DNA of 64,000 nucleotides from Alphaproteobacteria bacterium (GTDB taxonomy: Bacteria; Pseudomonadota; Alphaproteobacteria; Sphingomonadales; Sphingomonadaceae): NCBI GenBank assembly GCA_019232625.1, contig JAFANP010000018.1:1-64000 (forward strand), read 5' to 3'. Under the pieces are notes generated by a model. The model saw nothing but the letters and a program-made list of their open reading frames with translations. It ran no database searches and was not told where the DNA came from. A program made the translations under genes and the position numbers. Shown here piece after piece: positions 12,311 through 54,080 of this stretch. Position 1 is the stretch's first letter. Each line of letters starts with the position of its first letter.

Positions 12311-14539
12311 ATGAGGGCCGTGGACGGCAGCGCCCCTAGCACAGGGGCCGAGCCGCGAGGAAGGGGCTTCGCGGCGGCGTTGGAAGGGTGGAGCGGGCGC
12401 CTCGAGGCGCTCGCCGACCGCGAGCGCGACCAGCTCGCCTTGTGGCTGCCGGTCGGGCTGGGCTTCGGCACCGCCGCCTGGTTCGCCTTGCCCGACGCCC
12501 ATGCCTGGACCGCCTTCCTCCTCGCCGCGGCGGCCACCTTGTGCGGCGCTCTGGCGGCGGCGCCGGAGCGCCGCTGGGGCCGGGCGCTGGCGCTGCTCGC
12601 GCTCGCCGCCTTTCTCGGCTGCGCCAACGTCTGGTGGAAGGCGGAGCGGGTGGCGGCGCCGCGCCTCGGCCGGGAGCGGGCGGCGCGCTTCGACGCCGAG
12701 GTCGAATCGGTCCAGACCCTCGCCGCGCGCGACGCGGTCCGCCTGGTGGTGCGGACCGCGCCCGAGGCCGGGCTGCCGCCCCGCCTCCGCGTCAACGTGC
12801 CCGCCGCTGAGGCGCCGCCGCTGCGCCCCGGCGACGCCGTTCGGCTTCGCGCCTGGCTGATGCCGCCGGCGCCGGCGGCGGTGCCGGGCGCCTACGATTT
12901 CTCGCGCGCCGCCTGGTTCCAGGGCGTCGGAGGAACCGGCCGGGTGCTCGACATCGCGACTCTGCCCGGCGGCCGGGGGAAGGGCTGGAGCGCCCGGATC
13001 GCCGGCGTGCGGCAAAGGCTCGGCGACCATATCGCGTCCCGCCTCGGCGGCGGCGAAGGCGCGATCGCCGTCGCACTCGCGACCGGCGACCAGGGCCGCA
13101 TCCCCCAGGCGGATGCCGAGGCGATGCGCCGCTCCGGGCTCGCCCACCTTCTCTCGGTCAGCGGCCTTCACCTCAGCGCCGTGGTCGCGGCGGTGATGGT
13201 GCTGACGCTGAGGCTCCTCGCCCTCAGCCCCGCGCTGGCGCTGCGCTTGCGGCTGACCTTGTGGGCGGCGGGAGCCGCGGCGCTGGCCGGGATCGCCTAT
13301 ACGGTCCTGACCGGGGCGGAGGTGCCGACCCTGCGCTCCTGCATCGCCTCCCTGCTCGTCCTCGCCGGAATCGCCGCCGGCCGCGAGGCGCTGACGCTGC
13401 GCCTGGTCGCCGCCGGCGCGCTCGTCGTCCTCGTCTTCTGGCCCGAATCGCTCGCCGGGCCGAGCTTCCAGCTCTCCTTCGCGGCGATCACCGCGATCGT
13501 CGCCCTCCACGACCATCCCCGAGTCCGGGCCCTGCTCGCGGCGCGGGAGGAGGCCGTGCCGGCCAAGGCGGGGCGCTTCCTCTTCGGCCTGGTGCTGACC
13601 GGAATCGTCGTCGAGGCGGCGTTGACGCCGATCGCCCTCTTCCACTTCCACCGCGCCGGCCTCTACGGCGCCGCCGCCAACATCGTCGCCATCCCGCTCA
13701 CCACCTTCGTCGTCATGCCGGCCGAGGCGCTGGCGCTGCTGCTCGACACGATCGGCCTCGGGGGTCCCTTCTGGTGGGCGGCGGGCAAGGCGCTCGGCCT
13801 GCTGCTCGGGCTCGCCCACCGCACCGCCGCGGCGCCGGGCGCGGTGACCTTGCTTCCCGCCATGCCGGCCGGGGCCTTCGGCCTGATCGTGCTCGGCGGC
13901 CTCTGGGTCAGCCTGTGGCGGTCGCCGATCCGCCGCTGGGGCGCCGCCGCGGTCGCCGCCGGCGCCCTCTGGACGCTCGCCACGCCGGCGCCGGACATCC
14001 TGGTGACCGGCGACGGCCGCCACGTAGCCGTGCGCGGCGCGGCCGGCGACGTCGGCATCCTGCGCACCCGCGCCCGCGACTATGTCCGCGACCTGCTGTC
14101 GGAGTCCGCCGGCGTCGATACCGGCCTGCCGGACCTGGACGACCTCGACGGGAGCGCCTGCAACCCGGATGCCTGCGCGGTGACTCTTCCGGGGGACGGC
14201 CGGCCATGGCGCCTGCTCGCCTTCCGCTCCAAGGCCCATGTCGAGGCGGAGCCGCTCCGCCGCGCCTGCGCCGGGGCGGACATCGTCGTGGCCGAGCGCC
14301 GCCTTCCCGCCGCCTGCGCGCCGCGCTGGCTCAAGGCCGACGCGGCGACGCTGTCCCGCACCGGCGGCCTGGCGATACGGCTCGGCCGGGCGCCGTCGGT
14401 GGAGACGGTCGGCGAGTCCGTCGGCGCCCATCCGTGGCGGGCGGAAAGGGGAGAGGGAGAGAAGGAAAGGGGACAGGGAAGGGGACAGTTACTTTTCAGC
14501 ACGGCGGCGCCAGGCGATCGCGGCGGCGCTGAAAAGTAA
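12311..14539 (+). CDS. comEC: ComEC/Rec2 family DNA-uptake channel protein
   Basis: About 742 residues. Several starts are possible (12275, 12302, 12311); 12311 is preferred because AAGG lies about 10 bp upstream. The order is an N-terminal DUF4131-like membrane region, the Competence domain (about residues 200-480, with [15 protein letters not shown] and many helices) and a short C-terminal part in which the beta-lactamase-like domain is reduced. The protein would carry single-stranded DNA through the inner membrane. The last residues (about [18 protein letters not shown]) are encoded by a REPIN at 14481-14547, whose right arm also supplies the TAA stop, so the original C-terminus has been replaced. 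Confidence 0.9.
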
Positions 14540-14547
14540 CTGTCCCC
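14481..14547. repeat. REPIN (GGGGACAGTTACTTTT type) forming the comEC 3' end
   Basis: GGGGACAGTTACTTTTCAGC and its complement GCTGAAAAGTAACTGTCCCC flank a GC-rich centre. It lies in the 3' end of comEC, whose stop codon is the TAA of the right arm (14537-14539). It sits 26 bp from the rodA stop, between convergent genes. Confidence 0.85.
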
Positions 14548-52525: not shown

Positions 52526-52570
52526 GGGGCGGACGCCACTGTCCCCATTCCCCCGCAGCGCCCCCCAAAT

Positions 52571-52621
52571 GGGGACAGTAACTATTTGTCCGCTCCTACC
52601 GGACAAATAGTTACTGTCCCC
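52571..52621. repeat. REPIN (GGGGACAGTAACTATTTGTC type)
   Basis: 51-bp hairpin GGGGACAGTAACTATTTGTC, loop cgctcctacc, GGACAAATAGTTACTGTCCC. It lies between the convergent 3' ends of the zinc-ribbon gene and phhA. The arms are identical to those flanking the RAYT gene about 10 kb away. Confidence 0.92.
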
Positions 52622-52651
52622 ATTCGAAGTGAGCCTGTCGAAGCCTTCCCC

Positions 52652-53425
52652 TTACGCCTCGCCCTCCAGCTCGGCGTAGAGCGCGGCGAGGTCCGTGGTC
52701 TCGAGCTGGTCGAGCAGCCGGTCGAAGCAGTCGACGACGAAATAGCCGGGCTGGAACGAGTCCGAGCGGTAGGGCGTGCGGAGCACCTCGCGCAGCGCGA
52801 AGGGCCGGCGCCAGGGGCGCGGGTCGTCGAGCGCGAAGCCCGCCTCGCCGAAGCTCGAGGCGAGGCCGGCGCCGTAGATCCTGAGCGCGCCTTGCTCGCG
52901 GGCCAGGCCGAACTCGATCGTGTACCAGTAGAGGCGCGAGAGGCGGTGCAGCGTGCCGGTCGCCGCCGCCTCCACCCCGTGCCGGCCGATCGCCTGCAGG
53001 AGGTCGGCGATGCGCGGGTCGGTCAGCATCGGCACGTGGCCGAACACGTCGTGGAAGACGTCGGGCTCCTCCAGATAGTCGAGGCTTTGCGCCGAGCGGA
53101 TGAAGTTGCCCGCCGGGAACTGCCGCTGGCCGAGATGGCCGAAGAACACCTCGTCCGGCAGAAGGCCGGGCACCGCGACGACGGTCCAGCCGGTGCGGGC
53201 TGCAAGCCGCTCGTTGAGCTCGTCGAAGCGGGGGATGCCGGGCCGAGACAGCCGAAGCACGTCCAGTCCCCGCTCGAACGGCGCGACGGTGCGCCCCGCC
53301 AGCCGCGCCTGCTGCCGGGAGAAGAGCAGGTCCCAGACGCGGTGCTCCTCGGCGGTGAAATGCTCCCAGCGCTGGGGAACGGTCCAGTCCGCCGCCGCCG
53401 CGCCCTCGGTGAAGTCCCTGAACAT
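52652..53425 (-). CDS. phhA: Phenylalanine 4-monooxygenase
   Basis: 257 residues from ATG 53425; longer upstream frames cross the attenuator terminator and are rejected. The non-haem iron site is EPDVFHDVFGHVPML (two His), with a later Glu in YWYTIEFGLA; YGAGLASSFGE is also conserved. It converts phenylalanine to tyrosine using tetrahydrobiopterin and oxygen, for phenylalanine catabolism or tyrosine supply. No dehydratase (phhB) is adjacent. A leader ORF with Tyr codons and a rho-independent terminator precede it (53444-53595). Confidence 0.95.
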   Translation of the reverse strand: MFRDFTEGAAAADWTVPQRWEHFTAEEHRVWDLLFSRQQARLAGRTVAPFERGLDVLRLSRPGIPRFDELNERLAARTGWTVVAVPGLLPDEVFFGHLGQRQFPAGNFIRSAQSLDYLEEPDVFHDVFGHVPMLTDPRIADLLQAIGRHGVEAAATGTLHRLSRLYWYTIEFGLAREQGALRIYGAGLASSFGEAGFALDDPRPWRRPFALREVLRTPYRSDSFQPGYFVVDCFDRLLDQLETTDLAALYAELEGEA

Positions 53426-53443
53426 GTCTCGTCTCCGCAAATG

Positions 53444-53474
53444 AAAAACCCCGCCCGGATGGTCCGGACGGGGG
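53444..53474 (-). terminator. Rho-independent terminator upstream of phhA
   Basis: Read on the minus strand: CCCCCGTCCGG, loop ACCAT, CCGGGCGGGG, then UUUUUC. The stem is about ten base pairs with one mismatch and is followed by five U. It ends 18 bp before the phhA ATG, too close to be anything but an attenuator or the end of the leader ORF transcript. Confidence 0.8.
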
Positions 53475-53502
53475 CTGGAAGGTCGCTTGGTGAAGGTGCG
53501 CT

Positions 53503-53595
53503 TTAGGGTCCCGTCCGGTATGTCCGTCCGGCATAATAGAGCGCCGCGGCCGCGATCGCGGCGGACGGGGCAGGGTTGGAGCGCATCGGCTTCAT
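53503..53595 (-). CDS. Putative tyrosine leader peptide of phhA
   Basis: 30 codons from ATG 53595, stop TAA at 53503-53505. The peptide ends ALYYAGRTYRTGP: two consecutive Tyr codons (TAT TAT) and a third (TAC) five codons later. The ribosome-binding site is weak (GAGCGAG just upstream). It lies on the same strand and just before a terminator and phhA, which makes tyrosine. This is the arrangement of amino-acid leader peptides. The peptide could be a chance ORF; the matching RNA segments (see attenuator) are the main support. Confidence 0.5.
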   Translation of the reverse strand: MKPMRSNPAPSAAIAAAALYYAGRTYRTGP

Positions 53596-53703
53596 CTCGC
53601 TCAGGCTGGGCGCCCGCCTCCTCGATGTCAACGCGGAAAAAAGAGCCGCGGGGACGCCTTCTGCGCCCCCGCATCCAAACCCAGGCTGAACGCGGGCGGA
53701 CGA

Positions 53704-54080
53704 GGGGACAGTCACTTTTGGGCGAGGGGACAGTTACTTTTGAGCACGGCGGCTCGAGAGCGCGCGCGGCGGCGGGGAGGGAACAGTTACTTTTCCCCGC
53801 GGCGGCTTGAGAACGCGCACGGCCGCGGGGAAAAGTAACTGTCCCCATTCCTGCGCCAAAGGGGGACAGTTACTTTTGCGCACGGCGGCTCGAGAGCGCG
53901 CGCGGCGGCGGGGAAAAGTAACTGTCCCCAGCCCTGCGCCAAAAGGGGGACAGTTACTTTTGCGCACGGCGGCTCGAGAACGCGCACGGCGGCGCGGAAA
54001 AGTAACTGTCCCCATTCCCTTCCGCCTGTCCCCATTCCCTTCCGCCTTCCACATGGCGGCGGGGAAAAGTAGCTGTCCCC
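53704..54080. repeat. REPIN array (GGGGACAGTTACTTTT type), about four units
   Basis: Full hairpins at 53778-53846, 53862-53929 and 53946-54013, period about 84 bp, each GGGGACAGTTACTTTTGCGC...GGAAAAGTAACTGTCCCC around a CGGCGGCTCGAGAACGCGCA centre. Left-arm copies precede at 53704 and 53726, and a mutated right arm (AAAAGTAGCTGTCCCC) ends at 54080. It fills the gap between the divergent phhA leader and the lipoprotein gene, unlike most other copies, which lie at 3' ends. The remaining sequence of the 720-bp gap shows no gene. Confidence 0.9.

Follow-up and report, generated by a model that had tools for sequence, protein, structure and literature searches.

A predicted tyrosine-sensing transcription attenuator ahead of phhA in a clade of Sphingomonadaceae

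Results

The window analysed here is a 64,000-nucleotide stretch of contig JAFANP010000018.1 from a Sphingomonadaceae genome that is 99.99% complete (G000). Its minus strand, on which all features of the leader lie, carries phhA (52652..53425), the putative regulated gene, whose product was identified as phenylalanine 4-monooxygenase by a TIGR01267 match over cut-off and a PF00351 match. Upstream of phhA lies a leader peptide ORF of 30 codons (53503..53595) that encodes MKPMRSNPAPSAAIAAAALYYAGRTYRTGP followed by a stop codon and has counterparts in relatives. The ORF contains three Tyr codons, namely a TAT TAT pair (53533..53538), likely the regulatory codons, and a TAC (53518..53520). A linker separates the end of the ORF from an intrinsic terminator (53444..53473), which is composed of a stem-loop (53473..53449) and a U-tract (53448..53444), and a spacer of 18 nt (53443..53426) leads from the terminator to the phhA ATG at 53425. 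The initial annotation of this DNA had reported such a Tyr-containing ORF, a U-tract terminator 18 nt ahead of phhA and a set of nested complementary segments; the ORF and the terminator were confirmed by their coordinates, and the segment positions agreed with the window sequence.

Segment 1, CCCCGTCCG, is present at 53562..53570. Segment 2, CCGGACGGG (53510..53518), forms the 5' half of the putative antiterminator and can form nine of nine pairs with segment 3, CCCCCGTCCGG (53464..53474), which is common to the antiterminator and the terminator and is supported by pair conservation and by partner swaps among relatives. Segment 4 (53449..53458) is the 3' half of the terminator stem, as indicated by the paired cells over 23 aligned leaders. 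The first TAT lies 19 nt 5' of segment 2, and the TAC overlaps the start of segment 2, where a stalled ribosome would mask the segment. From the end of segment 2 to the stop codon there are 4 nt in the window and 7 nt in the commonest form in the genus.

A TTGACA at 53626..53631 is the probable -35 element of the leader promoter. The same hexamer was found upstream of the leader ORF in 19/29 leaders, versus 1.6% of shuffles. A candidate -10 element, CAGCCT (53608..53603), follows 17 nt past it, and this spacing would place the transcription start a few nucleotides from the leader ATG. In several leaders the distance from TTGACA to the ATG is so short that the transcript would be nearly leaderless. 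A generic sigma-70 scan of the window found no promoter. A second terminator-like hairpin with a U-run is located just 5' of the TTGACA (53673-53637, minus strand) and perhaps insulates the leader from upstream transcription. Repeats of AAGTAACTGTCCCC, on both strands and in inverted pairs, occupy 53704-54080 and 14481-14547 of the window, with related copies at 52565-52625. The window holds 11 matches to this repeat with at most one mismatch, against none expected, and the repeats together with their related copies flank phhA on both sides.

Considered in the window alone, the case for the leader is weak and within chance. A terminator scan of the window returned 3 sites versus 1.7 in shuffles, and the leader fold was matched by 11/200 shuffles (z -1.75). 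Rfam covariance models run over 53400-53720 gave no hit near its gathering score (best 16.8 bits versus 70), and a T-box, a riboswitch or another Rfam leader was rejected for this interval for want of a match.

Comparison with relatives gave a different picture. phhA was detected in 22/26 genomes of the window's genus; the genomes with no phhA match were G308 and G312, which are incomplete, and G053 and G129, which are not. G312 has a strong leader match (92.8 bits), yet no phhA match. A terminator stands directly before phhA in 22/22 phhA-bearing genus genomes, with an interrupted U-tract in four of them (L115, L117, L118 and L126). A Tyr cluster, comprising two to four Tyr in the last 16 codons, was present in 21/21 readable genus leaders, in forms that include TVYYYRTARAGPI, ALYYAYGTARAGPG and VYYYYGIASAGPA; leader L114 has a run of N over its Tyr part and was therefore left out of these 21 and of alignment A1. 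The leader was also found in two related genera of the family (2/2 sampled genomes of g45 and 5/5 of g77) and in one MAG (L034), so that Tyr codons are conserved in all 21 readable genus leaders, in 7/7 of the g45 and g77 leaders and in the MAG. Leader-bearing genomes are counted below as 29, that is, 22 of the genus (including G304, which contains N), two of g45 and five of g77, with L034 left out. Some of the genus upstream regions also come from records with a species or strain name: Sphingomonas parva 17J27-24 (L031), Sphingosinicella sp. LHD-64 (L032) and Sphingosinicella sp. YJ22 (L033). Loci L002-L030 were confirmed as phhA loci by tblastn with the PhhA protein.

We then applied a fixed rule, which required a terminator near phhA and an upstream ORF with at least two Tyr in its last 16 codons, to 148 distinct regions upstream of phhA, with those identical over 150 nt merged into one. 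The rule was passed by 30/148 and failed by 118/148, and among dinucleotide shuffles of the 30 passing regions it was satisfied by 3/1200. A leader search (R1) found in G000 one strong match, at phhA (86.4 bits), and two others of 28.6 and 24.9 bits; its matches in 213/298 family genomes were mostly weak and often covered the terminator part only. Apart from the Tyr cluster and the end that segment 2 encodes, the leader peptide shows little conservation. Judged across relatives by the fixed rule, the leader is beyond chance, unlike in the window alone. G299 has, near a contig end, an additional broken copy of leader and phhA (L134, L135; G299:C1:1236-2153) that may be an assembly artefact; L134 was dropped from the 30 passing regions, leaving 29 leaders for the tests of folding, pairing and composition.

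Tyr accounts for 20.5% of the last 16 codons in the 21 genus leaders versus 2.8% of the codons in 22 phhA genes, a fraction that, like the amino-acid table, is partly circular given that positives were chosen for at least two Tyr; the figure free of this circularity is the 21/21 genus leaders with a Tyr cluster. Leaders use TAT 55 times and TAC 14 times, and the genus phhA genes 53 and 103 times, respectively (Fisher p 1.8e-10), a bias that could come from codon choice or from avoidance of structure. Phe makes up 5/464 residues in the last 16 codons of the 29 leaders, and Phe sensing was rejected on account of this scarcity.

Base pairing was counted over the 23 leaders of alignment A1. For the terminator (3:4), 95.2% of cells were paired and three pairs had changed on both sides, while pair 109-120 was unpaired in 11/23 leaders. 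For the antiterminator (2:3), 89.4% of cells were paired, versus 31-61% with the partners slid, and pair 52-107 occurred as A-U in 6, G-U in 7, G-C in 9 and unpaired in 1 of the 23. Segments 2 and 3 of g77 differ in letters and keep the same layout (GCGGTGG with CCACCGC or CCACTGC in four of five leaders). When native segment pairs were compared with pairs built from segments of other leaders (20000 permutations), swaps as good as native numbered 0/20000 for the 29 leaders, 11/20000 for nine thinned genus leaders and 0/20000 when all groups together were thinned to 15 leaders. In this test the antiterminator's outer extension did less well (127/20000; thinned, 1112/20000). Against shuffles of the Tyr-to-stop stretch, where standing out meant that at most 15/300 were as good, the 2:3 duplex stood out in 16/29 leaders, and 13/29 taken singly did not. 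The window's own duplex was matched by 20/300 shuffles, and those of L120, L131, L133 and four of five g77 leaders were within chance.

A 1:2 pairing is possible in the window, and it is no better than in shuffles (z -1.24). Across the 29 leaders none had a 1:2 hairpin with z below -2 in the shuffle comparison, which leaves a conserved 1:2 hairpin unsupported. Of the three mutually exclusive pairings that the initial annotation had proposed, 2:3 and 3:4 thus hold in relatives, with partners that co-vary through compensatory changes within one clade, and 1:2 finds no support above chance. Through their common segment 3, the antiterminator would exclude the terminator.

The distance from the first Tyr codon to segment 2 has a median of 17 nt and a range of 12-25 nt over the 29 leaders, with pairing sought only from 12 nt onward; it is 19 nt in the window. 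Stall sites were placed by ribosome footprint sizes. Given this footprint and a first Tyr codon 17-19 nt before segment 2, segment 2 should stay exposed while a ribosome has the Tyr codon in its A site, and should be covered by a ribosome that has reached the stop codon (4 nt past the segment in the window). Before segment 4 exists, the region of segment 2 pairs with segment 3 with a median probability of 0.76; L133 and four g77 leaders do not exceed 0.27. In equilibrium folding the window's terminator had a probability of 0.29 with no ribosome and 0.92 with a ribosome at the first Tyr codon; in the latter state the value was at least 0.66 in 27/29 leaders and 0.00 in L008 and L121. Equilibrium folding was accordingly rejected as proof of a switch. 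With segment 4 present, a stalled ribosome does not keep the terminator from prevailing at equilibrium in these 27 leaders, so the switch has to be a kinetic one, decided by timing as in the published race model (PMC1183508).

Prephenate/arogenate dehydrogenase (TyrA) has two domains, PF02153 and PF20463, and neither was matched in G000 in two profile searches; control genomes gave matches in 14/14 and 12/14. PF02153 had no match in 19/26 genus genomes. In a family sample (n = 298), TyrA was over cut-off in 263 genomes and had no match in 33 (control 13/14). Among the leader-bearing genomes, TyrA was not over cut-off in 24/29, including G145 with a weak match (5.1e-4), and was kept in five (G298, G300, G302, G310 and G316). 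phhA is present in 31 of the 33 TyrA-less family genomes; G053 and G129 have neither gene. These two nearly complete small genomes of the genus gave no TyrA or PhhA match and contain HPPD, and they are predicted to be tyrosine auxotrophs. The catabolic enzyme HPPD was found in 25/26 genus genomes, including G000, so that tyrosine can probably also be degraded in the genus and a catabolic role of PhhA is also possible. Because TyrA was undetectable in G000, PhhA is probably the main or only source of tyrosine there, which supplies a reason for tyrosine control of phhA beyond that given in the initial annotation.

Genus genomes contain nothing close to the hisHb gene of the hisHb-tyrA pair in G002, G005 and G015; identity is 32-36% for the best matches, which are perhaps ordinary HisC. 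A tyrA-shaped gap beside hisHb was sought as a trace of loss, and there is no gap to show, as hisHb itself is without a close genus match. In two genus members with a retained TyrA (L137 and L139), a DAHP synthase-like gene comes after tyrA and no hisHb stands before it (the DAHP synthase-like call comes from a Pfam run on L139 only). This tyrA was possibly regained. In G300 the retained tyrA adjoins a DAHP synthase gene.

In a 75-row phhA tree, a single branch (100/100) divides all 30 leader rows from the rest, with long branches flagged in the g77 part, so that one gain or one loss is enough to explain the leader. On the same tree at least nine changes of TyrA status are needed, and TyrA appears to have been lost or regained several times. 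In 20 TyrA-less family genomes from other genera, phhA carries no visible leader (L175, L176, L178, L180, L186-L191, L193 and L195-L203; 0/20 upstream regions by eye and 0/20 by the fixed rule). TyrA loss therefore does not need this attenuator. Sixteen of these 20 loci fall in a long-branched phhA clade of 18 rows.

Discussion

The anatomy of the leader, its conservation, the co-variation of pairing partners, the enrichment of Tyr, the tie to phhA and, in two profile searches, the absence of TyrA were all observed, and together they make it very probable that the phhA leader is a ribosome-mediated transcription attenuator that senses charged tRNA-Tyr. In this mechanism the leader ORF would be translated, ribosomes would stall in it, the switch would be kinetic and the output would respond to tyrosine. 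RNA polymerase would start just 5' of the leader ORF, with a ribosome following. When Tyr-tRNA is ample, the ribosome would pass TAT TAT, reach the stop codon and cover segment 2, whereupon segment 3 would pair with segment 4 and transcription would end ahead of phhA. When Tyr-tRNA is short, the ribosome would stall in the Tyr cluster, some 17-19 nt short of segment 2, and the free segment 2 would capture segment 3 on its emergence. No terminator would then form, phhA would be transcribed, and PhhA would convert phenylalanine to tyrosine. The Tyr-attenuator reading of the initial annotation is thus supported by Tyr codons, co-varying segments and a terminator that are kept within one clade.

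The same attenuator might serve another physiology, in which PhhA acts mainly in phenylalanine catabolism and the leader only limits PhhA when tyrosine is plentiful. HPPD in 25/26 genus genomes, that of the window included, is consistent with such a role, as is Pseudomonas, where PhhA is described as catabolic under PhhR (PMC1173090). We regard it as unlikely, since TyrA was undetected in G000 and not over cut-off in 24/29 leader-bearing genomes, which then need another source of tyrosine, and the leaders carry Tyr with few Phe codons (5/464 residues). A further proposal is that the leader peptide acts otherwise, by stalling that does not involve tRNA-Tyr, by control of phhA translation or through a leader RNA or peptide acting in trans, a role that could also be additional. 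The trans-acting peTrpL of Sinorhizobium meliloti, as presented in PMC7298713, is a precedent; however, little of the peptide is conserved except the Tyr cluster and the part that segment 2 encodes, and a terminator 18 nt before phhA fits transcription control, so that this proposal seems improbable. Hardly credible, finally, is an ordinary terminator beside an unrelated ORF that contains Tyr by chance. GC-rich terminators with such stems are common in the family (R1, 213/298, mostly weak), and the window by itself does not set the terminator apart from chance, but the fixed rule was passed by 3/1200 shuffles versus 30/148 real upstream regions, and both clade-wide conservation and partner co-variation speak against coincidence.

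Not every attenuator has the region I:II hairpin of the canonical trp leader. To our knowledge, tyrosine-specific ribosome-mediated attenuators are rare or undescribed. The trp, his and pheA attenuators of E. coli and Salmonella, as outlined in PMC1183508, likewise have a leader ORF with codons for the product amino acid, a terminator before the first gene, and an antiterminator (II:III) and a terminator (III:IV) that share a region; the same source presents attenuation as a race model. The phhA leader differs from these in using Tyr, in preceding a gene for a usually catabolic hydroxylase and in that a conserved I:II hairpin was not detected. The candidate uORFC-8-2 before cysS in Rhodobacterales (PMC8632094) is also alphaproteobacterial, was also found comparatively and also has tandem codons and a terminator; it differs in its Cys codons, its tRNA synthetase gene and the order in which it occurs. 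Attenuators predicted for tyrA operons, such as hisHb>tyrA of Agrobacterium (PMC1173090), concern the alphaproteobacterial tyrosine branch too, but sit on tyrA, whereas in the window's genus it is phhA that carries the attenuator. In gammaproteobacteria, phhAB, which includes the gene for the same enzyme, is described as under PhhR/TyrR (PMC5343134, PMC1173090), that is, transcription factor control for catabolism in contrast to a cis-acting leader here. Fitness or growth data have led to the proposal that PhhA makes tyrosine in Dyella japonica, Legionella and Echinicola, and in Dyella and Legionella the account in PMC7311316 describes a biosynthetic PhhA with no identified TyrA, as in the window's genome. 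We found no phhA attenuator in the parts of the open-licence PubMed Central literature consulted. Among the features testable from sequence, the phhA leader appears to have those that define a ribosome-mediated transcription attenuator. The kind of attenuator is known; its novelty here lies in the gene, the amino acid and the link to pathway replacement.

We lean towards a history in which, in one clade, a usually catabolic PhhA was made a dedicated tyrosine-biosynthetic enzyme by a single gain of a trp-type Tyr attenuator, which would have let TyrA go; two genus members would now be without either route, and other TyrA-less relatives would use an unattenuated PhhA. The leader would link regulation to a switch between metabolic routes, with the replacing enzyme bearing the control expected of a biosynthetic gene. 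It may serve as a genomic cue for a biosynthetic rather than a catabolic PhhA, and the evolution of control during the replacement of one pathway by another could be tested on it directly.
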